This document shows, one piece after another, positions 27,950 to 45,992 of a stretch of DNA of 45,992 nucleotides. Positions within the stretch are counted from its first letter, which is position 1. Each line of letters opens with the position of its first letter. A model generated the notes under the pieces. It ran no database searches. It was not told the DNA's origin and was given only the letters and a program-made list of their open reading frames with translations. The position numbers and the translations under genes were made by a program. The DNA comes from Clostridiales bacterium (GTDB taxonomy: Bacteria; Bacillota; Clostridia; Mahellales; Mahellaceae): the NCBI GenBank assembly GCA_030156435.1, contig JASGMM010000007.1, positions 1 through 45,992 on the forward strand, read 5' to 3'.

Positions 27950-28933
27950 ATGAGCATTAATGAGGAAATAAGCAAAGCCATTAAAGATTTTACTTTGGCA
28001 AAATATAACTTAAGGATAAAAAGCGGCAAAGAAGGTTTAGAATTGCCGCCATATAAGGGTTCTACCTTCAGAGGTGTATTCGGTCATGCTTTTAAATCGA
28101 CTATATGCAGTCATGCTCAAGACTGTCATGAATGTGAAGTAAAGAGTATTTGCGCATACAGTTATATCTTTGAGACAACTCCACCTGATGATACTATGGT
28201 ATTAAAAACGTATGATGATATACCGAGGCCTTTTGTTATAGAACCGCCCTTAAACTCCAGAACTCACTATGACGAGGGTGATAGGCTTTCATTTAACCTG
28301 ATACTGATCGGTCGTGCTATTAAATATTTGCCATATTTCATATATGCATTCCAGAAAGCTGGAGAAATGGGTATAGGCAAAGGACGGCGGCCTTATAGTC
28401 TCGATGAAGTTAAAACGATAGAATTATTCAGCGATAAAGGGGAAACCATTTATACGATTTATGACGGCAAGGTGATCAACAACGACAGATACATTAGAGG
28501 TTCGGAAATCGTAGAGATAAGCAAACGATATAAGAACGTAGAGCACTTAACTTTATCATTTGATACCATGTTGCGTATTAAGAAGGACAAGCATTTGGCC
28601 ACAAAAATGGAATTTCATATTCTGATAAGGAGTATCTTAAGACGATTCTCTAATCTATGTTATTTTCACCATGATTATCAACCTGAACTGGATTACAAGA
28701 GAATTATTGAAGCATCGCAACAAGTTAAAATAGTGGAAGATGATACCGATTGGGACGATTGGGAAAGATTTTCCAATAGACAGGATAGCCGTATGCGATT
28801 TGGCGGCCTCGTTGGCAAGATAACGTATGAAGGTCATATAGGAGATTTCATGCCGTTACTTTTACTCGGTGAACAGATTCACGCAGGCAAAAATGTTACT
28901 TTCGGTTTGGGTAAATACTCTATTATGGTATAA
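27950..28933 (+). CDS. cas6: CRISPR pre-crRNA endoribonuclease Cas6
   Basis: RAMP-fold protein of 327 residues that should cut the array transcript within each repeat, leaving an 8-nt 5' tag. The N-terminal part has the RGVFGHAFK motif followed by a cysteine cluster C-x4-C-x2-C-x4-C within about 20 residues, as in Cas6 of the PF10040 group. The C-terminus has the glycine-rich loop GKNVTFGLGKYSI expected of Cas6. The ATG at 27950 follows GAGGAGGAG by 6 bases; in-frame starts upstream would read through the promoter block. It stands in its own promoter unit before the effector genes and may also have served the lost type III system. Confidence 0.9.
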   Translation: MSINEEISKAIKDFTLAKYNLRIKSGKEGLELPPYKGSTFRGVFGHAFKSTICSHAQDCHECEVKSICAYSYIFETTPPDDTMVLKTYDDIPRPFVIEPPLNSRTHYDEGDRLSFNLILIGRAIKYLPYFIYAFQKAGEMGIGKGRRPYSLDEVKTIELFSDKGETIYTIYDGKVINNDRYIRGSEIVEISKRYKNVEHLTLSFDTMLRIKKDKHLATKMEFHILIRSILRRFSNLCYFHHDYQPELDYKRIIEASQQVKIVEDDTDWDDWERFSNRQDSRMRFGGLVGKITYEGHIGDFMPLLLLGEQIHAGKNVTFGLGKYSIMV

Positions 28934-28937
28934 ATTA

Positions 28938-28980
28938 TTTTTATAGATGCAACTGTTATAGCATTGCGCTATGTTATAAT
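28938..28980 (+). promoter_or_regulatory. Effector operon promoter block, copy 2 of the duplicated element
   Basis: The block is TTTTTATA (28938-28945), 3 bases, GCAACTGTTATA (28949-28960), 14 bases, TATAAT (28975-28980). It matches the cas6 block in order and spacing, with one difference in the 12-base core. It predicts separate but co-regulated transcription of cas6 and the effector genes. Confidence 0.6.
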
Positions 28981-29015
28981 AGTCCAAATAAGAGTGATAA
29001 AAAAGGGGTGTAAAA

Positions 29016-31214
29016 ATGGCTTATTCTTTAGAGAATACTATAGAACAGGAAATATACGGTTTCTTAACGGCCCAAGATATTGAAGAAGAAGAATTGCCGC
29101 AGCGTATAAAAGAGCAAATACTAAGAGGCAGCGTATATGCCGAGTTTCCTACTGCTAAAGATGGCAGCTATAGGTTGGTATTATTTAGGTTGGCATCTCC
29201 GGTTACTATGAGGGAAGAGGTGTTTTTGGGTTCTATTCTCTTGAATTCGTTTTTGAGCCAAAATGTGCTATTGGCATGTCAAGGTAAGCAGATGGGTCAT
29301 ATTGCTATGGTAGCTAATGATTTGGAGAACTTTTATTACCTTTGGTACACCGATGAAACGTTGGATAAGCTGTTGGAAATATATCGGCAGCAGTTAGAGA
29401 ATAATCTGCTTGATCTCTATTTAGGGCCACAGAATGAAGAGAAGGGCATACACGGCGATATATACAAGCTTTTCGATTTCCATAAGAATAACATAGAGGC
29501 TTTTCCTATATTTGCTATGCCAAGGGCTTATGTGCCTGAGCTGGGGGAGATAGCTCGTAAATTGTTGCTGCAGCGTATAAATGATTTTGATTTCCACAGC
29601 CAAGCTAACCCTACCAAAATAACGGCTAATATGGCATTTTTCCTGTCTCGCGAAGGAAATGAATTCCAATCGCCATATGTTCTAATTGCCCGTATGACTG
29701 GGAGGTATGGTTCAAAGACGGGCATAACTGTTCGGGAATTAAGTAGGGCATTTAATATATCCGATACATATGATTTAAGCACGAAGACCGGCGAAACCGC
29801 ATGTGCAAAGGATATAAAAGAAAGCCTTGGTAAGGCCAAATATTCACCGGATCGCACGAAGGCATTATTTACCGAAATCGTGAATATAGGTGATAAGTTA
29901 GCAAAAAATGAGCCCGATGAATGGGATATGAAATACGCCAGAGATAAAGCGTTGGAGTTGTCTCCTGCTGAACTGATAGATGAACTGCTCGGTCAATGCC
30001 AAATGGGGTATTTAATGCTCGGTGATCACAAAGAAGATGCAAAAGGTATATATTGCCGGTGTTGCGGCGCTAATGTGGCTGAGCTTAAAGAGAACCACAT
30101 CATAATGGGAGAGGATGTTGGTAAGTACCACAATCAGTTTGTCAACCATGATGCGGATGCAGATACGAAAATATGCATAAAATGCTGCGTGCAATCTTAT
30201 TTGGCGCTTAGAGTGACGGGTAATATAGCCGGTAGTCTAGCCTTTGTTCCATGCCAATCGAGTATGATATTTCATTTTGGCGATCATACTGATGCCGATA
30301 TCAAAAATATAGCTGCTTTATTAAAGCAAGTATTTACTCTGGTAAAGGCAAGAAAGGCTAATAAAAGGATTCTATATGAGTTAAGGACAAAGAAAAACGA
30401 GATGGTTAAAAAATTGGATAGCACGAAGTCATCAAGGAAACAAAATGAACTTCAGGAACAACTGAACGAAGTTGATGAGGCTTTACAAAGAGCGATGAAT
30501 GAAGATGCCGCCTATGTGGAATTGCTTAAACAACAACTTAAGTATAAAATTGATCCTGATACCGATCCGGCTATAGATGTCTTTTCTGAGGCAGACATCG
30601 ATATTGATATACCCGAAAACTATGTTTTTGGTATAGGATTAGGTAACTATAGGCTCATGGCCTTTATTCTGCCTGAATTTAGAAACTACGACAATAAAAA
30701 ATCCCACGATTTTGTGCAACAGAAATTCAACAACAGCAAGATAACCAATATAACCGTTTTGGCGTTTTTGCGTAAATTATGCGGTTGTAACGGCCCATAT
30801 TATTATATGACTTTACCGGCACTGGATGAAAGGAATTTCTCCACCGATACCTTCTATGTACATGATAAAGAATACAGCGCTGAGGAGGTGATGGGATATT
30901 TTGAGCTTTTTACCGAATTCAGCGGTCAAGTAATGAAACGGGGCAGGGACAATAATCTTGTTAGAAAGATGATTTTAGCTGAGCGTATGCTGTACGATCC
31001 TCTTATCACGCTCTCCGAAGTTATGCGTCATTCCAGAGCGTTGTCGATGGATAACGCGGATAAATACCATGTTATAATTGATCCTATCTCCAGGCAGCCG
31101 GATCTCAATAAATATCTATACTTATACCTTAAGTCAAGGGATTTTGAAATATCTAATAATAAGGAGATGAAGCAATATGGAAGAATTTGCATTGAGCGAA
31201 AAAGAATTAGATGA
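29016..31214 (+). CDS. Type I-D-like effector large subunit (Cas10d/Csc3-like) without HD domain
   Basis: Large protein of 732 residues in the place of the effector large subunit. A zinc-binding region with CRCCG (about residue 346) and CIKCC (about 386) recalls the zinc finger of Cas10d. A long charged helix, probably coiled coil, covers about residues 442-510 (ELRTKKNEMVKKL onwards). No HD motif is found at the N-terminus, unlike typical type I-D Cas10d, and no GGDD cyclase motif is present, so it should not make cyclic oligoadenylate. The HD nuclease is encoded separately at 39493. I place it as Cas10d-like from context (Csc1- and Csc2-like neighbours) and the zinc region; a divergent Cas8 is the alternative. 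Confidence 0.65.
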   Translation: MAYSLENTIEQEIYGFLTAQDIEEEELPQRIKEQILRGSVYAEFPTAKDGSYRLVLFRLASPVTMREEVFLGSILLNSFLSQNVLLACQGKQMGHIAMVANDLENFYYLWYTDETLDKLLEIYRQQLENNLLDLYLGPQNEEKGIHGDIYKLFDFHKNNIEAFPIFAMPRAYVPELGEIARKLLLQRINDFDFHSQANPTKITANMAFFLSREGNEFQSPYVLIARMTGRYGSKTGITVRELSRAFNISDTYDLSTKTGETACAKDIKESLGKAKYSPDRTKALFTEIVNIGDKLAKNEPDEWDMKYARDKALELSPAELIDELLGQCQMGYLMLGDHKEDAKGIYCRCCGANVAELKENHIIMGEDVGKYHNQFVNHDADADTKICIKCCVQSYLALRVTGNIAGSLAFVPCQSSMIFHFGDHTDADIKNIAALLKQVFTLVKARKANKRILYELRTKKNEMVKKLDSTKSSRKQNELQEQLNEVDEALQRAMNEDAAYVELLKQQLKYKIDPDTDPAIDVFSEADIDIDIPENYVFGIGLGNYRLMAFILPEFRNYDNKKSHDFVQQKFNNSKITNITVLAFLRKLCGCNGPYYYMTLPALDERNFSTDTFYVHDKEYSAEEVMGYFELFTEFSGQVMKRGRDNNLVRKMILAERMLYDPLITLSEVMRHSRALSMDNADKYHVIIDPISRQPDLNKYLYLYLKSRDFEISNNKEMKQYGRICIERKRIR

Positions 31215-31851
31215 GTTTTGCTATACGGTGTTTAAGGCTATGGATGCTTTAGGTTTTCTCCCCATATCTTTAAAGAGCCGTGAAGCGACACCAAGCCGTT
31301 TGGAGAAATATCCGCGACTTTTGTTAGGATATTTGCAGCGCTACGATGATTCTATCATTGCTTTTAAGGAATGGGAAAGTAAATTGCTGCGTGATGTGCC
31401 GAGCGATGATGCTAACTTTCGCAAGGATAAATACTTTGGGGTGGTCAGCAACGTCGAGAAATGGCTGGAGAATCACAAAGATATGTTCAGTGGCAGAAAT
31501 AAAAAACTGGTCATACAACATTTGCGCGGTAGCTTATATGCTCGTATATTTGCATATATGTATCCGCGCCGAGCCATATGCTTTGCGGTCAGCGATGAAA
31601 TGCGGGATAGGAAAGGCTCGTATGAAGAAGCGTTGCAGCAGTTTGATAATATAGTTGCGCAATCCCGTGAACTGCATGATATCAAAGGTATTATGGACGA
31701 TGAAGAATGGAATATGGCGTTGACTGACGCTAAGCAGATATTCGCTGATGCATCTGGGTTTTACAGGAAAGTTATTGAAGGAAAAATGAAGGAGACAAAA
31801 GAAACGATAGAAGGAATAGAAAGGGAGGACGATTACTATGATGAGCGATAA
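31177..31851 (+). CDS. Helical protein overlapping the large subunit gene; candidate small subunit (Cas11-like)
   Basis: Protein of 224 residues, almost entirely predicted helix, with a very acidic C-terminus (EREDDYYDER). I recognise no domain. The start overlaps the large subunit gene by 38 bases and has its own AAGGAG site at about 31160; the end overlaps cas7 by 14 bases. In known type I-D systems the small subunit Cas11d is an internal product of the cas10d 3' end. A separate overlapping gene at the same place could do that job here. Size and helicity fit, but sequence similarity is not evident to me. Confidence 0.5.
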   Translation: MEEFALSEKELDEFCYTVFKAMDALGFLPISLKSREATPSRLEKYPRLLLGYLQRYDDSIIAFKEWESKLLRDVPSDDANFRKDKYFGVVSNVEKWLENHKDMFSGRNKKLVIQHLRGSLYARIFAYMYPRRAICFAVSDEMRDRKGSYEEALQQFDNIVAQSRELHDIKGIMDDEEWNMALTDAKQIFADASGFYRKVIEGKMKETKETIEGIEREDDYYDER

Positions 31852-32818
31852 TCTGAGCAATTTTATAAAACAAATGAATGAATTGAAAGATGTATTGGAA
31901 CCACAGCCCTTTGGTAATGGTGGAAAGAAAATAGCCAAGCCTTCTATGGTAAAGAAAGTGGCAACCATTATAGGGGTTAAAACTACTGCCTCCAGGTTTA
32001 TACCGGTTTCTCATGAGGGCTATTCAACAGATACTTACATAGATAGGGTGGATATTTTTGGTGTAAACAGGGCTGAATTTATAGGCCGTAAGCAAAAAGG
32101 GATAGAACGCAGAGCGCATATGACCATGTTCCGGGAGTTATTGGAAAACATGTCCGGTCAAAAATGGGAGGACGTATTTAAAAAGTACTTCGGTGATACG
32201 TGCATAATTCCCGATGATCTCTGCCTTGCCTGTTGGAATTGCTCATTGTTTGGCGGATTAGAAGCCGGGAAAGGCGCTGTTTTTTCTAGAATAAGGTATT
32301 TTGACACTTACTCTATTGAACCGGCAGAATTTGCAGTGGCCATGGAAGGCAGTGAAGAAGGTATGGCTATAGGTAATACTGTATCTGAGAATTTATCGGC
32401 AAAACGTGGTTCTGATTCATATCATCAATATGAATACGTAAAAGCCGGTACGCATTTTCCATTTATCGCTATAATTGAGAATCCGACATTATTAGATGTC
32501 ATAGGGTACATAAGGGCTGTGCGTATAGCGGATAATCAAGGGTACGGCAAATACTCAGCTAACCATGGTAAGTTTGACACTCAATTTTTAGCCGTTTCAA
32601 CCGGCTATCCACGATTTTCTGTGTTGGATATGATAGAGTGGGCGGGGGAAGATTACTCGATAAAAAATGTACTTGATATGTTTAACGGCAAGAAGCCGGG
32701 CGTTGAGTTTGATACGGTAACCGATGTACCTATAGCCCTTTACGGAGATGAAATAGACGAGATGGCGCAGCTATTATCCAGAGAGTTTAAAATGTATTTT
32801 GAGATGTTAAAGGGATGA
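31838..32818 (+). CDS. cas7: Cas7 backbone protein, Csc2-like
   Basis: RAMP protein of 326 residues, expected to form the crRNA-binding filament of the effector. It has a cysteine motif LCLACWNCSLFGG (C129, C132, C135), then FSRIRYFDTYSIEPAEF and EYVKAGTHFPFIAIIENP, followed by a region rich in Gly/Tyr (NQGYGKYSANHG). The order CxxC / FG / TFP-like / DP-like / R-x-YG resembles Csc2 of type I-D. The ATG at 31838 or 31841 may be used. The stop overlaps the cas5 start in an ATGA arrangement. Confidence 0.75.
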   Translation: MMSDNLSNFIKQMNELKDVLEPQPFGNGGKKIAKPSMVKKVATIIGVKTTASRFIPVSHEGYSTDTYIDRVDIFGVNRAEFIGRKQKGIERRAHMTMFRELLENMSGQKWEDVFKKYFGDTCIIPDDLCLACWNCSLFGGLEAGKGAVFSRIRYFDTYSIEPAEFAVAMEGSEEGMAIGNTVSENLSAKRGSDSYHQYEYVKAGTHFPFIAIIENPTLLDVIGYIRAVRIADNQGYGKYSANHGKFDTQFLAVSTGYPRFSVLDMIEWAGEDYSIKNVLDMFNGKKPGVEFDTVTDVPIALYGDEIDEMAQLLSREFKMYFEMLKG

Positions 32819-33585
32819 TTGACATGGAGTTATTTTGCAGACGTTTCGTCTTGCGTAACTGTGGGCGCTTTTTACACATAAGCTCCGATTTCGGTTCAAA
32901 ATATAAAACTCATTTATTTGTTACATCAGAGGCCTTATATGCGGGTATGACCAGGGAAATGACGCGAAAGCCTAAAATGGTGGATATAAAAGAAGATGTA
33001 TATGATTTTTATGCCACTTATGATATCGCAGGATTCCCGGTATGGTTTACTCCCGGCATATTTGTGGAGGACACCGCGATTTTGGAACCGATTAGGTCGC
33101 GCAAGATGATCGATGTAAATACTTTTAACGTTATGGATGAAGATTATCCCGGTACAGGATCGGGCAAGAAACGGCATTCATCCCCTACTTACGGCACTAT
33201 GGAGAGCATATTGCCGGGTAATTACCTCGTATTTTTTGGGTTTTCGACATGTGAAAAATATTTGAGTAGTTATCAAATGGGGAGCGTTTATATGTTGGGC
33301 AAAAAGCGCACTATGTGTCAAATAGTTGATATGTCGCCAGTATGTTTATGTGATTACGATAGGAATGGAGATGTTTACCCCGTACAGATTGATCACATGC
33401 AAATCAATGATTTCTCTGAATATACTATACACGCTGTGACTATGCGGTATATGCTTGTAAGCGGCTTGTATAAGAAAGAAGTGGTTAAATGCCGCTTTAG
33501 CGGTAACGGTTTTGAAGATGGTAATTGTATTCCGGCTCAAGAATACGCTTTCCCTTTAGCCGCTATACCTGAAGCCCTTTCTTGA
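32815..33585 (+). CDS. cas5: Cas5 protein, Csc1-like
   Basis: RAMP protein of 256 residues that should cap the 5' tag end of the crRNA. The recognisable part is FPVWFTPGIF (a Y/W-TPA-like motif of Csc1), a proline/glycine turn ESILPGNYLVFFGF and SVYMLGKKRTMCQI, matching the Csc1 pattern of a hydrophobic strand followed by LGK. Assignment is by these short motifs and by position after the Csc2-like gene. Two starts are possible, 32815 (ATGA overlap) and 32824 (better spaced from AAAGGG). Confidence 0.7.
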   Translation: MIDMELFCRRFVLRNCGRFLHISSDFGSKYKTHLFVTSEALYAGMTREMTRKPKMVDIKEDVYDFYATYDIAGFPVWFTPGIFVEDTAILEPIRSRKMIDVNTFNVMDEDYPGTGSGKKRHSSPTYGTMESILPGNYLVFFGFSTCEKYLSSYQMGSVYMLGKKRTMCQIVDMSPVCLCDYDRNGDVYPVQIDHMQINDFSEYTIHAVTMRYMLVSGLYKKEVVKCRFSGNGFEDGNCIPAQEYAFPLAAIPEALS

Positions 33586-33733
33586 GTGGAGGAACTCGCC
33601 TCTATCTTCAGTTGATAAGGGTTGGGGATGGGGGCGGGCACTTCGCTTAAAAGGCGATCTTAAAGTAATTGGTTGAGTTCTGATTTGTTTTAAATTAATG
33701 AGGTGAAATAATTGCATATAGTGATTTATTATA
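33586..33733 (+). other. Upstream part of the cas5-cas1 gap
   Basis: No gene is supported. The stretch is G-rich near 33618-33640 and has a GAGGTGAAATAA sequence at about 33700 that would place a ribosome site before a TTG at 33713. The frame behind it (MHIVIYYSF) ends inside the first degenerate repeat after 15 codons and is probably not a gene. Confidence 0.4.
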
Positions 33734-33865
33734 GTTTCACTCTAAGACCCGATATATAATGGGGATTGAAAGGGTTTTTAGTCGACCTAAGAAGAATTGA
33801 AACATAGATATATAATTTAAAGACCCGATATAATGGGGATTGAAAAGTATAAAGGGGATTGAAAG
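33734..33865 (+). repeat. Degenerate CRISPR repeats (mini-array relic) between cas5 and cas1
   Basis: Three pieces of the array repeat in the same orientation. The first, 33734-33772, is nearly complete, with GTTTCACTC at the start, a two-base insertion (GATATATAAT for GAGATAAT) and the normal end GGGGATTGAAAG. The second, 33818-33847, lacks the first ten bases, has GATATAAT and an extra A. The third, 33854-33865, is only GGGGATTGAAAG. A 45-base spacer-like piece lies between the first two and contains one more repeat-like end, ATTGAAAC. It may be an old array, a regulatory crRNA-like gene, or the cas1 promoter. Confidence 0.85.
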
Positions 33866-33892
33866 GAAGACGAAGGGTGAATCAATATATTT

Positions 33893-34900
33893 ATGGACAT
33901 TGTAGTAGATGATTTCGGCATATCCTTAGGGAAGAAAAGCGAGAGATTGCTGATAAAAAAGAAAGGCGAAGTTTTGAGTGAAATACCGTTTTTCGATGTT
34001 TCACAAATAATTATTTCATCTTCCGGTGTTTCTATATCAACGGATGTAATACAAGAATGCATGGCTAACGGTATACAGATCAGTTTCCTCAGTTTTAACG
34101 GTCAGCCGTATGCGCGTATTTCCTCACCGAATCTCACAGGCACGGTCATTACTCGCCGCGAGCAGCTTATGGCATATAACGACAAACGCAGTGTGCTTTT
34201 GTCGAAGGAGATTATTAACGGTAAGATAAGAAACCAAGGCAACGTGCTTAAATACTTTGCACGCTATTGTAAAAATGCTGATCCAAAGCTCTATAGGCAG
34301 ATGTACGAGGGGGTGGGACAATTGGATGCTAGGCTATCGGAGCTTGCGGTTATCGATGGGGATAAAATAGACGACGTAAGGTTACAAATAATGTCTGTAG
34401 AGGGCAGAGCATCCGATATATATTGGCAAAATGTAAGATTGTTGCTTCAAGATAAGGTGGATTTTGCTAAAAGAGAGCATCGGGGAGCGACTGATCCTGT
34501 TAATTCGTTGCTTAATTATGGTTACGGTATGCTCTATTCGCAAATATGGGGAGCATTGATCTTGGCCGGACTGGAACCATTCGCCGGTTTCATGCATGTT
34601 GATAGGCCGGGCAAACCCTCCATGACGTTAGACCTTATAGAGGAATTTCGCCAGACCGTTGTGGACAGAGTAGTTGTAGCCATGATACGTAAAGGTGCCG
34701 AAGTTGAGCTGGTGGAGGGGAGACTAACGGATCAGATACGTAAAACGCTTATATCCAAGATAAACGAGAGATTGGACAGCAAAGAAAAATATGATGGCAA
34801 AGATTTTACGATACGTACTATAATACAGAAACAAGCGCGGCGGATTGCTACTTATTTACGCGGCGAAAATAAATATAAGGCTTTTGTGGGTAAATGGTAA
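33893..34900 (+). CDS. cas1: CRISPR integrase Cas1
   Basis: Cas1 of 335 residues, the metal-dependent integrase that with Cas2 inserts new spacers at the leader end. The catalytic ligands are E170 in SVEGRASDIYW, H235 in GFMHVDRPGKPSM and E250 (with D247) in LDLIEEFR. The N-terminal beta-strand domain and the C-terminal helical domain are both complete, and KQARRIATYLRGE near the end is typical. No strong ribosome site is seen directly before the ATG; the degenerate repeats end 28 bases upstream. It opens the adaptation-helicase operon. Confidence 0.97.
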   Translation: MDIVVDDFGISLGKKSERLLIKKKGEVLSEIPFFDVSQIIISSSGVSISTDVIQECMANGIQISFLSFNGQPYARISSPNLTGTVITRREQLMAYNDKRSVLLSKEIINGKIRNQGNVLKYFARYCKNADPKLYRQMYEGVGQLDARLSELAVIDGDKIDDVRLQIMSVEGRASDIYWQNVRLLLQDKVDFAKREHRGATDPVNSLLNYGYGMLYSQIWGALILAGLEPFAGFMHVDRPGKPSMTLDLIEEFRQTVVDRVVVAMIRKGAEVELVEGRLTDQIRKTLISKINERLDSKEKYDGKDFTIRTIIQKQARRIATYLRGENKYKAFVGKW

Positions 34901-34912
34901 AGGAGGTGACCT

Positions 34913-35188
34913 ATGAAAACATTGGTTATTTTCGATATACCGTCGAATAAGATAAGAAACAAAATAGGAGAGGCATGCAAAGACTATGGCTTGATGCGCA
35001 TACAAAAAAGTTCTTTTTTTGGCGATATAAATAATAATAGGCGAGAAGAATTGAGGCTGAGGCTAAAGAAGATATTAGATATAAGAGAAGGCAATATACA
35101 AATGTTTCCTATATGTGACAAAGATCTACAAATGCGAAAGGTTATCATTAATCAAAAGGAAGAGCTGTCATATGAAACCGATAACTAA
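34913..35188 (+). CDS. cas2: CRISPR adaptation protein Cas2
   Basis: Cas2 of 91 residues, the ferredoxin-fold dimer at the core of the Cas1-Cas2 integration complex. It starts MKTLVIFDIPSNKIRNKI with the conserved D8, and RIQKSSFFGDI is the usual second motif. The strong AAAGGAGGTGACC ribosome site before the ATG is nearly a perfect anti-SD match. Its last six codons overlap the start of cas4. Confidence 0.96.
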   Translation: MKTLVIFDIPSNKIRNKIGEACKDYGLMRIQKSSFFGDINNNRREELRLRLKKILDIREGNIQMFPICDKDLQMRKVIINQKEELSYETDN

Positions 35189-35783
35189 TGATAAGATAGC
35201 GGACATGATAAACGTAACCGATATAAAACAATATATATATTGTCCCAGGATAATATATTATACGTATGTTATGCCCGTAGAGAAAAAATTGTCCTTTAAA
35301 ATGGAGTATGGCAAAGAACAACATATGGAATTAGATCGGCTGGAAAAACGGCGCAAGTTTGTATCTTACGGTTTCGCTGAAGGAAAAAGGATATTTCATT
35401 TGACCGTTGCGTCCGAGAGATTGAATCTTTTGGGCGTGATAGATATGGTTATAGAGGCATATAACGGCCATATGAAATTCTATTACCCGGTGGAGTTCAA
35501 AAACACCTCCGGTAGAATCCAGCTAAATCATAAATATCAGTTAACGGCCTACGCTATGCTTTTGGAACAATGGTCTGATAAACCTGTGGGGAATGGTTTT
35601 ATATATATTATTCCATCTAAGGATATTTACTCCGTGGCGATTACTCAAAATATGAGGGACTATGTAAAACGCGTTATCGGTGCCATTTATAATATTATAA
35701 AATCGGAGAGTTATCCCGAAACGCGTTCAATGAGATGCTGCCATGACTGTGAATATAAGAATTATTGTGCTGATTTGGGGTGA
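35172..35783 (+). CDS. cas4: Cas4 exonuclease
   Basis: PD-(D/E)XK nuclease of 203 residues with an iron-sulfur cluster, used to trim new spacers and choose the PAM end. Cluster cysteines are C24 (IYCPRIIYY) and C190, C193 and C199 near the end. The nuclease core is H50, D91 (LLGVIDMVIE), E108 and K110 (YPVEFKNTSG), followed by the QLTAYAMLL helix. All key residues are present. The ATG at 35172 follows AAGGAAGAG and overlaps cas2 by 17 bases. A second Cas4-family gene follows after 4 bases. Confidence 0.95.
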   Translation: MKPITNDKIADMINVTDIKQYIYCPRIIYYTYVMPVEKKLSFKMEYGKEQHMELDRLEKRRKFVSYGFAEGKRIFHLTVASERLNLLGVIDMVIEAYNGHMKFYYPVEFKNTSGRIQLNHKYQLTAYAMLLEQWSDKPVGNGFIYIIPSKDIYSVAITQNMRDYVKRVIGAIYNIIKSESYPETRSMRCCHDCEYKNYCADLG

Positions 35784-35787
35784 AGAT

Positions 35788-36705
35788 ATGTATTTCTTGA
35801 GTCAAGAAGAAAGGAAGCATTTGCTTAAAGGATATTTGCCGCGTTCACGAGAAGTCGATATTGCCGAAGAACTGCGTGGCTGGAATTGGAATGAGCCGCC
35901 CTTAGTTCCTATTTACGACATTAAACTTCCGTTGTATGAGATAGCCAATAAATATTGCGATACCGGACGAGATGTTTATTTGAAACGTGTGGAAAATGTT
36001 AAAGTACAGCCAAATACGGATATGATAACGGGCAGCGCATTTCACGGTATATTGGTATCCTTTATCGTAAAGGCTAAAAAACTGATATATAATTTGGGAG
36101 TCGACGAATACACTAAAATTTTTGATGAATTAAAAGTTCCGGATTATAATGCATTGGAAAGCCAGAACAGCTTATTGGATGCGACTGCGTATGAAAGCAT
36201 AAAGAGCAAAGCCCGATTGATATGGGAATATGAATATGCGCAGGCCGTAGGGCGTATACAGGATGTATTGGCGCGCCAACCATATGTAGGTGAGGATAGT
36301 CTGATATCCCTGGCTTTACCTGTAATAGTGGAGCAAAAATTAGATGGTTCGTTTTTAGGCTTGAGCCGTTATCTGAGCGCCGATGCTTTTACCCTTTCCG
36401 AGCCAATGGTGGTTGATCTGAAATTCGGCCCCAAAAAGGACTTCCATAGGCTTACTACGACAGGTTATGCGCTTGTCATGGAAAGCGTTTTTGAATTTCC
36501 AGTTAACGTAGGGTGTATAGTTTATGGTTATTTTAAAAACAATCGATTGATCATAGAGAAGGATTTTCACATTATAGATGATGAATTGCGTCAATGGTTT
36601 ATAGAACAAAGGGATGACCGAATGCGCATGATATACGAAAGTATGGATCCGGGAGTATCTGAGAATTGTTATGATTCGTGCCCGTATTATGGCGTATGTC
36701 ATTAG
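35788..36705 (+). CDS. csa1: Cas4-family protein Csa1
   Basis: Protein of 305 residues of the Csa1 family, a Cas4 relative found mostly with type I-A systems of archaea. The N-terminus MYFLSQEERKHLLKGYLPRS with EELRGWNWNEPPL, and CDTGRDVYLKRV, match what I know of that family. Nuclease-like motifs are LKFGPKK (MVVDLKFG) and the preceding acidic VEQKL, with a C-terminal cluster CYDSCPYYGVC plus the upstream Cys in KYCDTGRDVY. The ATG at 35788 follows GGGGTGAAG. Csa1 is thought to work with Cas4 in spacer processing; the pair here is complete. Confidence 0.85.
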   Translation: MYFLSQEERKHLLKGYLPRSREVDIAEELRGWNWNEPPLVPIYDIKLPLYEIANKYCDTGRDVYLKRVENVKVQPNTDMITGSAFHGILVSFIVKAKKLIYNLGVDEYTKIFDELKVPDYNALESQNSLLDATAYESIKSKARLIWEYEYAQAVGRIQDVLARQPYVGEDSLISLALPVIVEQKLDGSFLGLSRYLSADAFTLSEPMVVDLKFGPKKDFHRLTTTGYALVMESVFEFPVNVGCIVYGYFKNNRLIIEKDFHIIDDELRQWFIEQRDDRMRMIYESMDPGVSENCYDSCPYYGVCH

Positions 36706-36727
36706 ATAAAGAGGGTGAGAAGGGTAA

Positions 36728-39499
36728 ATGTCGCAAATTGAATTAATGGTATACAATACGCTGCCTTCCGTGGGTGATTGTATGTTTGCCGATGAGGTAA
36801 ACCTTTTCAGATCATATATAGGTGATGACGAAGTGTGCCCTTATGTACATCAAGCCGAGGCTTTTAATCGTATCCACCAAGGAGATAACGTAACCATGGT
36901 GGCCGGAACGGCTGCAGGTAAAACATTGGCGGTGGCTGTACCACTTTTTGTGAAACTATCCAAAGGTTTAATAAATAAGATTATGTTTCTATATCCGACC
37001 ATAGCGTTAATGGACGACCAAAAGACGGTTATGGAGAAACTCGCACTTTTAAGCGGTTTACAAGATGAGGTAGGGTTAATATGCGGTGGTTTATCCAGAA
37101 CGGCCTTGATCAATAGTCTGTCCAAAAAAATACTGCTGGCCACGCCTGACGCCATATATTGGTTTTTCAGGAAGAACGTCAAATATAATTCGATAATGAT
37201 TTATGGTCTTTCACAAGTGGACGAATTCGTACTCGATGAGGCGCACCTGTTTTCAGGATTAACACTGCAAAACCTAAATCTTTTCTTTAAACGAATTGAA
37301 ATATTACAGCAACAATTTTTAGGCCGCGATTTGTTCCATTTGCATGTGCTAACCGCCACCCCCCATGATGAGCTTTTCTTACTGAATAACGGTTATCGCA
37401 TAGATGGTAGGTCCAAGTGCGGAGATGTAAAGGTTGTTTTTTATAATACCTCGCCGTATGAAAAAGCGGATGATTTTCAAAATCTTATAAGCCAAGCAGT
37501 AGAAAAAGGTTTCGATAAGGTATTGGTTATATGCAATGGCGCTATGGTAGCCCACCGCCTCTTTCAGCAGCAAGCCGGGAAATTGAAGGACAGGAGTGCG
37601 TTTTTGCCTCAACATTATATGCAGTTTGGTCGTGTAAAGCGATCCGATTTAGAAGAGGGGCTAAGGGAAGCCGGAGTTGAAGATGAACTCATACGCCGTT
37701 TGGAAAGAGTAACTATTGAAAATACGATGTATAGATTGCCTCAGTTCAAAGAAGTGTTTGTTGAGGTTTCTGCCTCGGATATTTTCGAACCGCTCCAGCG
37801 CGTATTGACCAAGCTTAAGGGACAGATAATGCAGGTTTTGTATCTGATATTTAAATGTCGCAAAGATTTTTCAGGCAAACTTTCTTATGACGAATTTCAT
37901 TACAATGTCGGCAGAAGGAGTAAGGCTTTAGAGCATATACTGGAAACTTTAATAGAAGATAAAGGCATACATGATTATTTTGGGTGGAAAGAAAGCTTGA
38001 CGGGTGCATTAAATACAATGCTGGAGCAGATAGAAGAAAAATTGTCCGTTGCTGAACCTATTATTCTGAAGTGGCCGGGCTTAGAGGGGCTTGCCGATAT
38101 ATTGGATGGAATGCATGAAACGATTATACAAGAAGTGATAAAACGATTTAAGGATGATTTTTCATTTGGTTATAGTAGTATAAAAGAATATAAGGGACGA
38201 TTTCCTGTAAATACCGATCCCTATATCTATTTAAAATGGCTGAGAAATTATTTTGAGGATGATTTGAATGACATAAAGGAGGTATTACTTGAAACGTTGG
38301 CCGATGATCTCGAATTTAGGGATAAGATCGAGATGCAACATGTAGCTTTTATTAAAGGGTATGATTATCCGTTAATCATATATTCCGGCAGCATGTCCAA
38401 ACCGTCAAGGGACGGTCTTATCAACCTTTTTGACGGTTTGGACAAGGCTATTTTAATTTCGACGTCTGCTGTGGAGGTCGGGGTTGATTTCGTTGCAGAC
38501 TTGCTCATAAGCGAGCAATGTGAAGCCGGCTCGTTTCTGCAGCGATTCGGCAGAGTAGGCAGAGCGGGTAATATGGCTGAAGCATGGATATTGGCCGATG
38601 GTGGAACCTTCGGCGACATAAAGGATAAAATTGGGAATAGTGGCGGTAGAATCAGCCGCGAAGATTTTACATCGTTAATAAACCAATCGTTCGCTCATAA
38701 GGAACATATATGGTATTCTTTATTGGGAGAAGCTTCTTACCGTTTAATCAATGATCAAATAGGTATGATTGGTACCGAGATAAATAAGCGGTCATTTATA
38801 AGCAAGGAAGCTGATATGCTAGCCGATTCACTCAATAAAAACGATATCGTACTGGCATATGGCCTACGCAGCACTATGCCTTCCATATCATTGAGGGATG
38901 TCGGGGTTACACGTGATGCGTTTTATATTTTACAGTTCGTAGAAAATGAACGCTTGAAAGTGGAGGACTCATATTTTGAAGTAGCTTCGGCCGATATATA
39001 TTTTAATGAATTGCTTTGGCGTAAACGAAACTGGCGTATAGGAATGAATGTAGACAGGATGCTAGAGGAAAGCCAGGCTGTTTTTCTATGGAATGGTACC
39101 GAATTGGAAATTATAAGCGAGAGAGGTATTGGAAAATGGATGTATGATGCTTTATTAAGTATATCGAATAAATTTCCGAATAAATGTATTATGTTAGCCT
39201 ATGGCGATGTGTACCTTCAACGATATGATACAGGAGAGGAAATGGGTTCCATAAAAGATGTGGTTGATAAATACGAGGCACCTCTAATAATCCCGAATCA
39301 GTTTTATATAGTGATGCCTAAAATGAAGGATGTCGCTGGGTTGAAGAAAAGGGGATTATATGGCATTGATGAGATATATTATGATGTGGATTATAATGGT
39401 CAAAGCACCAATGGTAAGGATTTGGCGATGTTGGACAGGATACAGGGAGCTTGTATGGCGTTTTATATAAAATGGATGAAGGAAGGCACGTTATGTTGA
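36728..39499 (+). CDS. cas3: CRISPR helicase Cas3' without HD domain
   Basis: Superfamily 2 helicase of 923 residues, recruited by the effector to unwind target DNA. Walker A is AGTAAGKT (59-66), motif II DEAH (170-173), motif III TATP (209-212) and motif VI QRFGRVGRAG (about 604-613), with STSAVEVGVDF as motif V. Motifs V and VI resemble the type I-D (cyano-type) Cas3. About 250 residues, from about 290 to 540, sit between the two helicase domains and I recognise nothing in them, making the protein clearly longer than typical I-D Cas3'. The nuclease is the separate HD protein encoded by the next gene, which overlaps by 7 bases. Confidence 0.92.
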   Translation: MSQIELMVYNTLPSVGDCMFADEVNLFRSYIGDDEVCPYVHQAEAFNRIHQGDNVTMVAGTAAGKTLAVAVPLFVKLSKGLINKIMFLYPTIALMDDQKTVMEKLALLSGLQDEVGLICGGLSRTALINSLSKKILLATPDAIYWFFRKNVKYNSIMIYGLSQVDEFVLDEAHLFSGLTLQNLNLFFKRIEILQQQFLGRDLFHLHVLTATPHDELFLLNNGYRIDGRSKCGDVKVVFYNTSPYEKADDFQNLISQAVEKGFDKVLVICNGAMVAHRLFQQQAGKLKDRSAFLPQHYMQFGRVKRSDLEEGLREAGVEDELIRRLERVTIENTMYRLPQFKEVFVEVSASDIFEPLQRVLTKLKGQIMQVLYLIFKCRKDFSGKLSYDEFHYNVGRRSKALEHILETLIEDKGIHDYFGWKESLTGALNTMLEQIEEKLSVAEPIILKWPGLEGLADILDGMHETIIQEVIKRFKDDFSFGYSSIKEYKGRFPVNTDPYIYLKWLRNYFEDDLNDIKEVLLETLADDLEFRDKIEMQHVAFIKGYDYPLIIYSGSMSKPSRDGLINLFDGLDKAILISTSAVEVGVDFVADLLISEQCEAGSFLQRFGRVGRAGNMAEAWILADGGTFGDIKDKIGNSGGRISREDFTSLINQSFAHKEHIWYSLLGEASYRLINDQIGMIGTEINKRSFISKEADMLADSLNKNDIVLAYGLRSTMPSISLRDVGVTRDAFYILQFVENERLKVEDSYFEVASADIYFNELLWRKRNWRIGMNVDRMLEESQAVFLWNGTELEIISERGIGKWMYDALLSISNKFPNKCIMLAYGDVYLQRYDTGEEMGSIKDVVDKYEAPLIIPNQFYIVMPKMKDVAGLKKRGLYGIDEIYYDVDYNGQSTNGKDLAMLDRIQGACMAFYIKWMKEGTLC

Positions 39500-40254
39500 T
39501 AGATGAATTCAAGAGATGCTATGGCAAGTCTACCGGAGCCTTGTCACTGTATGACCATGTTATTGGTTCCACGGTTATAGCAAAAGCTGTACTGGATAAG
39601 TTCGGAGGTGTTTATCCGGATTATCCGAAGAGTAAAAAGGATATGCTTATTTTTGCTACCTTTACGCATGATTTAGGCAAACTGGATACGGATTTTCAGG
39701 CCATGCTGTGTGCTGTTATAGCAGGAAAACCGATGCCGCCCAAACGTGTAAAGCATGAGGCCAGTACGTTGGATTACGTTGATTTGCTCGAAAATGGGCA
39801 GGGCGAGGTATATAATGTGCTTAATGATGAATTGCATTATGTTGTTGATAGTAAAATAGATTTAGAGATGGCTTTAGCATTTGCGGTATCACACCATGGC
39901 CTTTTTTACATGGCTTATGAAGCTACGGTTAATTATGGTAATCAGTGGCTGATACGCAGGGAGTGGACCACTAGGCCTTCACGGGAGATAAAGCGCATAA
40001 CATTAGTGGATCTTTTGTTTATGTATCACCCATTTGGAGGGCTGGTCATGATATCTGACCTTATACATTCGTTCTGCCATGAAAAAGGTATAGATTATCG
40101 CTATGTCTTAGAGAACAGCGACTCCTATAAAGGATTAATAGATTCTTTGATATGCAAAGCTGACGAATTGGAGGCAACGTTGAACAGGAGTGATCCAAGG
40201 GGTAATAGAAGCCTTGCAAGCTTGCTGAGGCTGTTGCTCGGTGAAATAAAATGA
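39493..40254 (+). CDS. Stand-alone HD nuclease Cas3''
   Basis: HD-domain metal-dependent nuclease of 253 residues. Metal ligands are H22 (LYDHV), H59 and D60 (FTHDLGKLD), H88 (VKHEAS) and H134/H135 (AVSHHGL), the full HD set of Cas3. It should degrade the DNA opened by Cas3'. A separate HD protein is the rule in type I-A but not in type I-D, where the HD is part of Cas10d. The ATG follows AAGGAAGG and overlaps the helicase gene. The next reading frame, a csm1-like remnant, begins right at its stop. Confidence 0.93.
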   Translation: MLIDEFKRCYGKSTGALSLYDHVIGSTVIAKAVLDKFGGVYPDYPKSKKDMLIFATFTHDLGKLDTDFQAMLCAVIAGKPMPPKRVKHEASTLDYVDLLENGQGEVYNVLNDELHYVVDSKIDLEMALAFAVSHHGLFYMAYEATVNYGNQWLIRREWTTRPSREIKRITLVDLLFMYHPFGGLVMISDLIHSFCHEKGIDYRYVLENSDSYKGLIDSLICKADELEATLNRSDPRGNRSLASLLRLLLGEIK

Positions 40255-40280
40255 GAGCATTAGGAGAGGGTGATTGTAAT

Positions 40281-40530
40281 ATGGGCGATAAAGAATTTAA
40301 TTCTGTTTTAATGGCGGGATTATTGCGATGTTGTGATATTATATGGGAATGGCACAATAACGGTAGCTTTTTGGAGAATCGCAAATTTAGCTATCCCGAT
40401 GATGTTGACGGCATATTGGTGGATAATCTTGTTAAAGGTCGTTCCGATGATGCGAGGCATTTGGTCCGCATATTGGATAATGCGTTCAGCAGCGTTAATT
40501 CATTCATTTATCCTCGTCAAGGCAACGACA
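40281..40530 (+). pseudogene. csm1 (cas10)-like 5' remnant, truncated by deletion
   Basis: About 80 codons in one frame, from the ATG at 40281 (GGAGAGGG upstream), that read like the beginning of Csm1. EFNSVLMAGLLRCCDI stands where Csm1 has the HD start GALLHDIGK, and ARHLVRILDNAFSS stands where it has a hydrophobic helix before ASxER. The HD pair itself is gone. No palm, GGDD or zinc domain follows: the frame runs on to 40649 only because it is read out of frame through csm4 sequence. This points to a deletion removing most of csm1, csm2, csm3 and the first codons of csm4. The identification is tentative. Confidence 0.45.
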
Positions 40531-41433
40531 GCGATTTAGCGGCTTTATCACGCCTTTTAAGTCTGATACTATATTCGGTCATTTATGCTGGGCATTATTG
40601 TATACAGAAGGACGGCAGGCATTGGATGAACTATTGCAGATGTGTTTAAAAGGTGAACCGCCGCTTGTTCTATCTAATGCCTATCCTGGCGATTTATTGC
40701 CAAGGCCGCTGGTAGCAATGGAGAAAATAGCGGAAAATCAGATCCTGGACCCAATAGATGCTTTGAAACGTTCTAAAAGGGGCAAGGCGCTGAAAGATTT
40801 GCGTTATGTTACCGTTGCTCAGTTCGATAAATTAAGAAAAGGTAGGGGCTTTGAGATGGAAAAGATTGAAGCCATAGATCCTATGGCACCGAAGATATTT
40901 TCCATAACACGGTTGATAGGTTACTCGGCACGACCGGCGAGGGTGGCCTATACGTTGAAGAAGAAACTTTCCCAAATGCCAGTGCATATCCGTATTTATC
41001 ATTGTATGTTTGGTGTAAACCGAATTGGCGTAGTAAATTGCTTAATTTGCTTGTTTTCGTAGGCAAAGAGGGCTTTGGCAAAAGGCGTTCGATAGGCAAG
41101 GGGCAATTTGAAGTAATGCCTCCCGACGATGTTAGCCGGATTTTTGAGTTGGACAAGCCCAATGCTTTCGTGAGCCTTTCGGATTTTATTCCAGCAAAAG
41201 ACGACCCTACTGACGGCACATTTCGAACATTTACTAAATATGGGAAACTAGGCGGAGAGTATGCGGCATCTGGCCAGCCATTTAAACGTCCATTACTGAT
41301 GATTGCGGCAGGCGCAGTATTTAAGGCTGAGCATGTAAAGCCCTTTTATGGGAAAGCATTGGAGTCAGTGGCTAAGGTTGATTCTCATATTATACACCCG
41401 GCTTTTGCTTTAGCGGTCCCGGCTAAAATTTAA
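40499..41433 (+). pseudogene. csm4: Frameshifted csm4 (type III-A RAMP protein), start lost
   Basis: Clear Csm4 sequence broken into two frames. The first (40499 to about 40890, no start codon) reads FITPFKSDTIFGHLCWALL, then GEPPLVLSNAYPGDLLPRPL, as in the N-terminal half of Csm4. The second (about 40891 to 41433) reads HNTVDRLLGTTGEGGLYVEE, GFGKRRSIGKGQFEV, FVSLSDFIP and ends HPAFALAVPAKI, the diagnostic C-terminal half. The switch of frame lies between 40870 and 40903. Joined, they give about 300 residues, the normal Csm4 length. The protein cannot be made as it stands. Lengths and reading frames were followed by eye. Confidence 0.85.
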
Positions 41434-41450
41434 ATTTTGGGAGAATGGAT

Positions 41451-42800
41451 ATGAAAAACGTATTACTTACATTTGTCGGTAAGCAGGATCCTTTTTCGGA
41501 GAAGACGGGGAAAGAGGGAGGTATAGTAACTATTGTAAGAAAATATAAGTTTGATATTGTAGTGATGTTACCGTCAGCGGATATGCCGGGGGTTAAAGAT
41601 TCTACGCAAACTAATGCTTATGATACGAAAGACTGGATCCATGATGAGGTTAGTACAGATATAGGTGTGTACGTTAAGCCTTTGAGTTTGTCGGATCCTA
41701 CAAGTTATCGGCAAATTATGTCGGAAGGAGAAAAAGAGCTTAAAGCACTAATGGACTCTTTGTGTAAGGAAGATGTAAAATTCTATCTAAATAGTTCTTC
41801 TGGGACACCGGAGATGAAAAGCATGTGGCTTGTTTGGGCCAACAGTGCTTTTATACCGAAGGCTGTGGTATTGCAGGTCGCGGACCCGACATTTGTAGCC
41901 GAAGGCGATAGAGTGAGGGAGCTAGATATAGATTTTATAGAAGAAGTAAATTGCAAAAATAGAGCGGCGCGTTATATAGAACAGGGGTTATTTAAGGTGG
42001 CGGCGGAAGAACTGAATTCTCTATCGCGGATAGCTTATAGTTCGGCAAGAACAGATAAAGCATGTATGTTGAGCGATATATGCATGTCATGGCATTGCTG
42101 GGATTTGATAAATTATAAAGAGGCTTATGACCGCTTGGCGAATGTATATAATAAATACTCCAACAGCCGCGATATAGCCGATACTTTGGCTATAATAAAA
42201 AAGCAGGTTGATTATTTGAACAATTTGAAAATGGAGACATCTTCCGAGAATATATATAATATGGTAGATCTTTTTTATAATATGAAAAGGCGGTTTGAAC
42301 GGGAGGATTATACTGATGCATTGGCCCGTTTTTGGCGATTATATGAAGGGTCTATGTATTACGTGCTCAGAACATATTATGGCGTAGAGCCTGAAAAATT
42401 GTGTGAGAGCCATAACAAACAAAATCTGTTTATGATTAGAAATGGCTTAAATGTAAATGAAAGGTTAAATTATAGTTCCGCGCATAAAGCATTAAAAGAT
42501 ATTTTTCGTGATAAAAGGCTGAACAATATCTTACAGCAAACTGTATTGATAGATAGACAAGATTCTCAGCAAAGGAAATCGGTACAAGAAGCATTGGAAG
42601 ATCTAAGGAACTTTAGGAATGAGTCTATTGTTGCTCACGGAATGAAATCTGTATCAAGAGATTATGCGGATGCGGCAGTAAAAGTGGCCCCTATTGTTCT
42701 AAAAGGGTTTTTCCGGGATGATATAAATGCGATATTGGAAGAGTATCCTTTTGAACATAGCAAGATGGAAACTATAGCACAATTTACACGTATGATATAA
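41451..42800 (+). CDS. csm6: CARF-HEPN ribonuclease, Csm6 family, intact
   Basis: Protein of 449 residues. The N-terminal CARF domain starts MKNVLLTFVGKQDPF and carries the ligand-loop motif NSSSGTPEMKSMWLVWA (about residues 114-130), followed by VVLQVADPTFV. The C-terminal HEPN domain has the RX6H active site RNESIVAH (R389 and H396). In type III systems such proteins are switched on by cyclic oligoadenylate made by Cas10 and then degrade RNA. No frameshift or stop is found. The ATG at 41451 is better spaced from GGGAGA than the ATG at 41445. It follows the broken csm4 after about 17 bases and is the last gene before the array. Confidence 0.9.
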   Translation: MKNVLLTFVGKQDPFSEKTGKEGGIVTIVRKYKFDIVVMLPSADMPGVKDSTQTNAYDTKDWIHDEVSTDIGVYVKPLSLSDPTSYRQIMSEGEKELKALMDSLCKEDVKFYLNSSSGTPEMKSMWLVWANSAFIPKAVVLQVADPTFVAEGDRVRELDIDFIEEVNCKNRAARYIEQGLFKVAAEELNSLSRIAYSSARTDKACMLSDICMSWHCWDLINYKEAYDRLANVYNKYSNSRDIADTLAIIKKQVDYLNNLKMETSSENIYNMVDLFYNMKRRFEREDYTDALARFWRLYEGSMYYVLRTYYGVEPEKLCESHNKQNLFMIRNGLNVNERLNYSSAHKALKDIFRDKRLNNILQQTVLIDRQDSQQRKSVQEALEDLRNFRNESIVAHGMKSVSRDYADAAVKVAPIVLKGFFRDDINAILEEYPFEHSKMETIAQFTRMI

Positions 42801-43034: not shown

Positions 43035-43128
43035 AAGAACCCTTCTTCGAGATTTATAGCATGCACATTTATATCTGAATAGGCTTAGAAGCCGACTTTT
43101 AGCGGATGTTATCCGGTCGATCGGCTGG

Positions 43129-45992
43129 GTTTCATTCTAAGACCCGAGATAATGGGGATTGAAAGGATCGCATGAAGCTCATCTATTATGACACAATGAG
43201 AAGTTTCATTCTAAGACCCGAGATAATGGGGATTGAAAGGAAAAATTGCAGAACGAAAGAGCCGGTATATTGGCTGTTTCATTCTAAGACCCGAGATAAT
43301 GGGGATTGAAAGCATCGGCCATCTTCATTCCTCCTAAAAAAAAATAATTGTTTCATTCTAAGACCCGAGATAATGGGGATTGAAAGCTTCGTATATGCTG
43401 CGCACTGTCTTTTTTGCTTTAGCCGTTTCATTCTAAGACCCGAGATAATGGGGATTGAAAGCCGGATATCAATCCCCGGCCATCGCCTTACAGTGCCGGG
43501 TTTCATTCTAAGACCCGAGATAATGGGGATTGAAAGCCTGCTTTTGACGCATGAGGCTTAACAGGTATAAACAGTTTCATTCTAAGACCCGAGATAATGG
43601 GGATTGAAAGCGCTCTATTAACGCCGCCGTTAGCGCGCGCTGGGTTATGTTTCATTCTAAGACCCGAGATAATGGGGATTGAAAGAGGACCACACGCCGC
43701 CATGGCCCGCTCTGCGCTTGCTGTTTCATTCTAAGACCCGAGATAATGGGGATTGAAAGATTTATGCTGTGCCACATTACAAGCAGATTTGTATAGTTTC
43801 ATTCTAAGACCCGAGATAATGGGGATTGAAAGTAATACTTCACCAGTCGGCTCAATCAGTATAGCTTCAGTTTCATTCTAAGACCCGAGATAATGGGGAT
43901 TGAAAGGTGGACATCCATTCGTGAAAAGCTTCAATATTTGCGGTTTCATTCTAAGACCCGAGATAATGGGGATTGAAAGTCAAACCGTCTGTATCAACCA
44001 ATATTTCGGCCTCGCCGTTTCATTCTAAGACCCGAGATAATGGGGATTGAAAGTTTCATTCCACGTAAAATCCTGTATAGACATAGTCAGTTTCATTCTA
44101 AGACCCGAGATAATGGGGATTGAAAGTAATGCTTTTAACAGCGTTGGCACGGTTATACCTGCCGTTTCATTCTAAGACCCGAGATAATGGGGATTGAAAG
44201 ATCAGTCCATGTGGTATATGCTGACGCTATACCTTTAGTTTCATTCTAAGACCCGAGATAATGGGGATTGAAAGGTGCGCTATACTCAAGAAACCATCAC
44301 GCCCAGTAAATGTTTCATTCTAAGACCCGAGATAATGGGGATTGAAAGTCACCTTATACCGTAATAAAGCTATCACAACCGTAGGTTTCATTCTAAGACC
44401 CGAGATAATGGGGATTGAAAGACGAGTGCACCAGACTGGCTAGGAGTAACTGGAGGAAGTTTCATTCTAAGACCCGAGATAATGGGGATTGAAAGATCAC
44501 GCTGGGCTGTGTGAATATGGCACCTGTTTTGTAGTTTCATTCTAAGACCCGAGATAATGGGGATTGAAAGTATTATCGTCCTCTTACAGCCGCTTCTATA
44601 TCACGTAGTTTCATTCTAAGACCCGAGATAATGGGGATTGAAAGCTGACATGGGGATAAAAGTAATGGATATAAGGCATACAGTGTTTCATTCTAAGACC
44701 CGAGATAATGGGGATTGAAAGTGATATAAAAAGAGCTCTACAAGCTAAAAGGCAAAAGTTTCATTCTAAGACCCGAGATAATGGGGATTGAAAGACGTTG
44801 TAACACCATTTTTGACGAACAATACCGGCGCCGGTTTCATTCTAAGACCCGAGATAATGGGGATTGAAAGTATACATGTTATCGACGCATTTTAGCGTTA
44901 TTGTGTGTTTCATTCTAAGACCCGAGATAATGGGGATTGAAAGTGCTACAAAGGACAGAAAAAGGCAAGGAGATAAGACTGTTTCATTCTAAGACCCGAG
45001 ATAATGGGGATTGAAAGTAATGCCAGTTCGGCTATCTTACCCTTTTGCCGCAAGGATGAAGAAGGGTTTCATTCTAAGACCCGAGATAATGGGGATTGAA
45101 AGCATCGGTAAACAGTCGGTTGCCTTCTTCATCTATCACGTTTCATTCTAAGACCCGAGATAATGGGGATTGAAAGCGATATTCTCGATCGCTTTCGGTA
45201 GCCAGTACAGCCGGGTTTCATTCTAAGACCCGAGATAATGGGGATTGAAAGGTACTTGGCTACGGCCTTGCGCAAAAACTCGACCAATGGTTTCATTCTA
45301 AGACCCGAGATAATGGGGATTGAAAGCAACATTTATTGGTACCCCAGCCATTTTTAAGCCTCCCGTTTCATTCTAAGACCCGAGATAATGGGGATTGAAA
45401 GATCGCTAAAGAACGCGGCCAGTACATCCTGTTCGGCGGTTTCATTCTAAGACCCGAGATAATGGGGATTGAAAGAGCCCCGAATTTGTCGCCTATTTTT
45501 GGATATCCGCTCGTTTCATTCTAAGACCCGAGATAATGGGGATTGAAAGATATTCACCGTTTGCCGCATTATCAAGAAACGCTTTGTTTCATTCTAAGAC
45601 CCGAGATAATGGGGATTGAAAGTATTCTTCCTCTTCCTCAATCTTCACCTTAAAAGGTTTCATTCTAAGACCCGAGATAATGGGGATTGAAAGAAATTTT
45701 TGGACTAGTGAGGACGTTGGAAAGCTTAATGTTTCATTCTAAGACCCGAGATAATGGGGATTGAAAGTGTTCACATCAGCCCAAAACCTTTGAAATCCAA
45801 CCTTTGTTTCATTCTAAGACCCGAGATAATGGGGATTGAAAGCATGACCATCAAGCAATAAGTCATTATTGTATTCAAAGTTTCATTCTAAGACCCGAGA
45901 TAATGGGGATTGAAAGCCGATATGCGCAGCTACCTGTGCCCACGATAAGCCGTTGTTTCATTCTAAGACCCGAGATAATGGGGATTGAAAGC
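43129..45992 (+). CRISPR. CRISPR array, 39 repeats, continues past the window
   Basis: A 37-base repeat (begins GTTTCATTC, middle GACCCGAGATAATGG, ends GGGGATTGAAAG) occurs 39 times, from 43129-43165 to 45955-45991, all copies identical as far as I could follow. There are 38 complete spacers, mostly 36-38 bases; the exceptions are 34 (45623-45656), 39 (44795-44833), 40 (44645-44684) and 48 (45018-45065). I saw no duplicate spacers. The repeat has only a weak possible stem (CCC / GGG), like the little-structured repeats of archaeal-type systems. The array is still in progress at the right edge, so its end is not known. Confidence 0.99.

Follow-up and report, generated by a model that had tools for sequence, protein, structure and literature searches.

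A type III-A module, probably dead, left in a subtype I-D CRISPR operon of a Clostridiales bacterium

INTRODUCTION

How did pieces of a type III-A CRISPR module come to lie between the last gene of a type I operon and a CRISPR array, and is any of these pieces still likely to work? In the standard III-A operon, csm5 sits between csm4 and csm6. A first-pass annotation of the window (the whole stretch of DNA analysed here, 45,992 nucleotides) described a short csm1-like 5' end after cas3'', then a csm4 gene without a start and with one frameshift, and then an intact csm6. It proposed that a single deletion from csm1 into csm4, followed by the frameshift, had produced this arrangement, and that the type I and III-A systems had once shared cas6, the array and the adaptation genes. 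Our analysis upheld this description, with all coordinates right to within a few bases. We consider it very probable that the locus is a dead III-A module left in a living-looking subtype I-D CRISPR operon, broken by one deletion and one frameshift, and with an inactive Csm6.

RESULTS

The type I partner is a subtype I-D variant

The window spans contig 25 from end to end. The draft genome it comes from measures 2.19 Mb, is split into 104 contigs and is 99.6% complete. PADLOC assigned its CRISPR-Cas operon, from 27914 to 40254, to subtype I-D. The operon contains cas6, cas10d, cas11d, csc2/cas7d, cas5d, cas1, cas2, cas4, a csa1-type cas4, cas3' and a separate cas3'', as follows.

27914-28933, + strand: cas6, crRNA-processing gene, putatively shared (Pfam CRISPR_Cas6, 66 bits; 45-48% identity to Cas6 of the I-B + III-A loci G513 and G428)
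29016-31214, + strand: cas10d, I-D large subunit, variant (PADLOC Cas10_Id PDLC01506, 385 bits)
31177-31851, + strand: cas11d, I-D small subunit (PADLOC Cas11d, 141 bits)
31838-32818, + strand: cas7d / csc2 (TIGR03157 Csc2, 49 bits, above the cut-off)
32815-33585, + strand: cas5d / csc1-like (PADLOC Cas5d PDLC01497, 212 bits)
33893-34900, + strand: cas1, adaptation (52-59% identity to Cas1 adjoining csm5-less III-A loci, 24-31% to that of other III-A loci)
34913-35188, + strand: cas2 (matches Cas2 of L052, L054 and G513 at 93-113 bits)
35115-35783, + strand: cas4 (TIGR00372, 117 bits)
35743-36705, + strand: csa1-type cas4 (TIGR01896, 222 bits; 56-58% identity to Csa1 of csm5-less loci)
36728-39499, + strand: cas3' helicase (PADLOC Cas3 PDLC01533, 682 bits)
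39451-40254, + strand: cas3'' HD nuclease (TIGR01596 cas3_HD, 30 bits; 39451 taken as an upper bound for its start)

The I-D set of Cas10d, Csc2/Cas7d, Cas5d and Cas3' is present by NCBIfam and PADLOC profile matches, and, judged by these matches, the type I partner at the locus is a variant of subtype I-D. It resembles subtype I-D (Csc) systems in Cas10d, Cas11d, Csc2, Cas5d and Cas3', and differs from them in its Csa1-type second Cas4 and in the placement of the HD nuclease, which is a separate cas3'' gene here but is described as part of Cas10d in a review of I-D (PMC10212523). Family profile searches gave no HD match in the 732-aa Cas10d, so that the variant apparently pairs an HD-less Cas10d (29016-31214) with a stand-alone HD gene (39451-40254). 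The variant is rare: a scan with the large subunit, Cas10d, matched one of 391 genomes of the class, namely the window's own. A Cas3' query of the genome collection found no relatives. Between cas5d and cas1 (33734-33850), a pseudo-spacer of ~47 nt is flanked on both sides by a degenerate form of the array's repeat; the pair resembles crRNA-like regulatory RNAs of the CreR/CreA type, or an array relic, and has no seed match within the window.

Remnants of csm1 and csm4 precede an intact csm6

Downstream of cas3'', the following features were delimited.

40281-40535, + strand: csm1 (cas10) 5' remnant, putative, ~85 codons; its frame runs on to 40649 across the junction; HD motif lost
40499-40538, + strand: stretch with the deletion junction (the csm4 frame opens at 40499, csm4 homology begins at 40538)
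40538-40870, + strand: csm4 5' part, first frame, without a start codon (TIGR01903, 60 bits; PDLC01494, 95 bits)
40849-40891, + strand: csm4 frameshift region (frame change in the alignment with five intact Csm4; open-frame limits)
40882-41433, + strand: csm4 3' part, second frame, through the stop codon (PDLC01494, 168 bits; TIGR01903, 64 bits)
41445-42800, + strand: csm6, intact CARF-HEPN ribonuclease gene, 451 aa (TIGR02672, 91 bits; PDLC01816, PADLOC CARF-HEPN, 453 bits)
43128-45992, + strand: CRISPR array, 3' of csm6, with 39 identical 37-nt repeats and 38 different spacers, extending past the contig end

The first-pass annotation had named a lack of Csm4 matches as a refuting outcome; instead, each of the two frames gave highly significant Csm4 matches. 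The first frame covers TIGR01903 positions 26-136 and positions 12-101 of the PADLOC Csm4 profile PDLC01494. The second scores 57-64 bits against TIGR01903 (positions 134/172-303) and 137 bits against PDLC01494, or 168 bits when taken from 40882, and its match spans profile position 116 or 134 through the C-terminus (168 and 64 bits). On the strength of these profile matches, the identity as Csm4 is certain in both frames. When aligned with five intact relatives, the first frame begins at residue ~12 (SGFITPFKSDTIFGHLCWAL); it is open back to 40499, yet no ATG lies ahead of the start of homology. The second frame is open only from ~40867, and the alignment contains a single change of frame. 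Csm2 and Csm3 are absent, and 40254 to 41433 holds no gene besides the csm1 and csm4 remnants.

The stretch at 40281-40535 is harder to name. It matched nothing in Pfam, NCBIfam or PADLOC, and a PDB search returned chance matches only, with E above 1. An HMM of close Csm1 N-termini aligned with its N-terminus at 4.9 bits, which is below HMM significance, and 17 of 20,000 shuffles reached that score. With an HMM built from 13 diverse loci, 708 of 4624 shuffles did so; of the Csm1 profiles, only the close-clade one separates the remnant from shuffles. The first 16 residues of the remnant (GDKEFNSVLMAGLLR), placed ungapped and in register against the starts of four intact Csm1 (for example MNKEYQTILLAGLLHDIGK), gave an average BLOSUM62 score of 32.8. 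This value was reached by none of the 614 N-termini used as background, among which the best that is not itself a Csm1/Cas10 start had 18.5. In the remnant, RCCD replaces HDIG, and the HD residues are gone; up to the later ADN/SS (DN..SS) motif, it is ~33 residues shorter than Csm1.

A csm2 remnant, or an unrelated small gene, would be the other reading of this stretch, and phmmer did report a weak match to the Csm2 of G277 (E = 0.02-0.75, depending on the search). However, a Csm2 profile of six relatives failed to report the stretch, upon which the csm2 assignment was dropped, whereas the Csm1 profile matches at its N-terminus, the anchored Csm1 match beats the entire background, and csm1 would be expected at the head of the operon. 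We judge this other reading to be quite improbable, and take 40281-40535 to be a decayed csm1 start on the basis of the anchored N-terminal match and its position; it is the weakest identification of the locus.

In contrast to its broken neighbours, csm6 is whole. Its product matches TIGR02672, PF22208 and PF09670, retains the CARF NSSSGTP and HEPN RNESIVAH motifs, and is 30-39% identical to ten intact Csm6 proteins, with distant outgroups left out. Elsewhere in the genome, we found no second Csm4, no Csm5 and no Cas10 palm, the Cas10 searches giving only HD-domain cross-matches in other proteins. The Cas10/Csm1 polymerase palm is absent from the assembly, and merely the ~85 N-terminal codons are left at the locus.

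Relatives carry an unbroken module without csm5

Relatives were sought by a Csm6-based scan of public genomes and by Csm4-family searches in the class and the phylum; Csm6 replaced Csm4 as the scan query, because the Csm4 sequences initially aligned had diverged too far to yield a usable search pattern. An unbroken cas10-csm2-csm3-csm4-csm6 operon was found in five loci: those of Dethiobacter sp. SURF_39 (L052) and Pelotomaculum sp. PtaB.Bin104 (L054), together with L056, G513 and G428. The window's Csm4 is 38-42% identical to these five members of a csm5-less clade; the corresponding values are 29-30% for G277 and G372, and 19-26% for III-A loci from other clades. The relatives display this normal operon rather than an unbroken gene of different organization.

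In at least four other loci (L052, L054, G513 and G428), the csm operon adjoins cas1, cas4 and csa1, with cas2 called in all but G428. Compared with the window, Cas1 is 55-59% and Csa1 56-58% identical in these four, and Cas6 is 45-48% identical in G513 and G428. In G513 the adaptation genes precede the csm genes, as they do in the window, and the array of G513 lies between the two sets. The partners in the same cluster are I-B effectors in L054, G513 and G428, and a III-C set in L052. The repeats are 37 nt long and end in GGGGAYTGAAA plus one base, in the window and the csm5-less relatives alike. We found no intact locus joining I-D and III-A, either in the class-level sample with cas10d (391 genomes) or in small family searches, of which the one in the order reached three genomes.

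The absence of csm5 bears directly on the number of events. The window has no csm5, and a deletion between csm1 and csm4 would not remove that gene, which at first spoke against a single deletion. However, csm5 is absent genome-wide in G513, G428, L052 and L054 and in the more distant G277, apart from short cross-matches of low score; the control genome G372 gave 100 bits. L056 likewise showed only weak short matches. Because the closest relatives lack csm5 too, the gap is ancestral to the clade, and a second deletion to account for csm5 was rejected. With csm5 never present, one deletion and one frameshift suffice, as the first-pass annotation had it, and the one deletion also took csm2 and csm3. 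Measured on G513, it amounts to ~3.3 kb: csm2 and csm3 in full, the greater part of csm1, and ~11 codons from the start of csm4.

Given a draft in 104 contigs, and csm4 parts separated by just one frame change, the csm4 frameshift could have arisen as a mistake in sequencing or assembly. A broader version, in which the frameshift and possibly the junction too are such errors and the strain has an intact III-A module, is in our estimation very improbable, even more so than the csm2 reading. It would require that the assembly had collapsed ~3.3 kb of unique genes within a contig of 46 kb, which is unlikely, and neither Cas10 nor a second Csm4 is found on any other contig. Moreover, the csm1 remnant is itself diverged, with its HD motif lost, as real decay predicts.

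A decayed csm module in Desulfotruncus alcoholivorax DSM 16058 (L059) offers a parallel to the loss favoured here. There, the 5' half of csm4 is missing, and csm6 has been disrupted by frame changes and the loss of an internal segment; the adjoining cas2, cas4 and csa1 genes are whole (csm4 and csm6 at L059:173-1204). Both loci have a 5'-truncated csm4 and cas2-cas4-csa1 of the same clade. They differ in that csm6 is intact in the window and damaged in L059, that no type I-D effector was found at L059, and that the Desulfotruncus genome retains other Cas10 genes. As read from its sequence, L059 is a second case in which this module has decayed, independently of the window. In the ORF table, the cas1 of L059 is also divided between two frames.

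DISCUSSION

The locus is a case of ordinary modular decay. It keeps the Csm4 family (TIGR01903), the Csm6 family (TIGR02672) and the order csm1...csm4-csm6 of type III-A (Csm) systems, but it is broken and without csm2, csm3 and most of csm1, and the clade as a whole lacks the csm5 of the standard Csm complex. With the composite I-B + III-A loci of Firmicutes (L054, G513 and G428), it shares cas6 (G513 and G428), cas1-cas2-cas4-csa1, 37-nt repeats, the same csm families and their close linkage. Unlike in those loci, the type I partner is I-D instead of I-B, and the III-A module is not intact.

Because no intact I-D + III-A locus was found, we reconstructed the ancestor from the I-B + III-A relatives. 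It would have possessed cas6, the effector genes of a type I system, cas1-cas2-cas4-csa1, a single array and, without csm5, a cas10-csm2-csm3-csm4-csm6 operon, and both effectors would have used the same Cas6, array and adaptation proteins. With a single Cas6, the crRNAs of the array are expected to carry one handle type (ATTGAAAG). As to the shared cas6, array and adaptation genes of the first-pass annotation, the array type and the genes are indeed seen in the I-B + III-A relatives; that the sharing involved I-D in particular is what we infer from them. The ~3.3-kb deletion would then have brought csm4, from codon ~12 on, up against what remains of csm1, which breaks off at codon ~85, with the loss of the Cas10 cyclase, csm2 and csm3, and csm4 would have gained its frameshift afterwards. 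The locus may thereby provide a snapshot of the parting of two CRISPR effectors with one Cas6, one array and one adaptation set, with type III deleted and type I and the array kept.

What remains to be considered is csm6. The Csm complex presumably cannot assemble, and cyclic oligoadenylate would not be made. Transcripts of the I-D operon probably still include the gene, but its product, lacking the activator, would most likely be silent. With neither a Csm complex nor cyclic oligoadenylate from Cas10 to be expected, Csm6 is probably an inert leftover. An alternative would be that it was kept under selection as a stand-alone RNase of the I-D operon, responding to another cyclic nucleotide signal or to a I-D-linked trigger. 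Its full length and intact CARF and HEPN motifs, next to broken csm1 and csm4, would fit this possibility, as would a branch no longer than those of several functional homologues. However, a recent loss would by itself leave csm6 intact, the assembly has no Cas10, and in the parallel Desulfotruncus case csm6 decays along with csm4. We also know of no link between Csm6 and I-D. We regard retention by selection as unlikely, although somewhat less so than either the csm2 reading or an assembly error. If Csm6 is the inert leftover that we favour, an intact Csm6 without a cyclase could serve as a natural test of whether an orphan Csm6 is inert or costly.

Text passages of the 2025 classification (PMC12669027) describe a reductive evolution of type III, in which the loss of cOA synthesis correlates with accessory gene loss, and a III-A2 variant without Cas11; these passages make no mention of a csm5-less III-A. 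We do not claim novelty for the csm5-less clade.

The comparisons link the window to a III-A lineage that lacks csm5 and is accompanied by I-B, III-C and, here, I-D partners. Within this lineage, Cas10 carries GGDD in the four loci where it was checked. In G277 (L040:5930-7751), an IS21-type transposase pair, consisting of a Mu-type integrase and IstB, lies directly upstream of a csm5-less csm operon.
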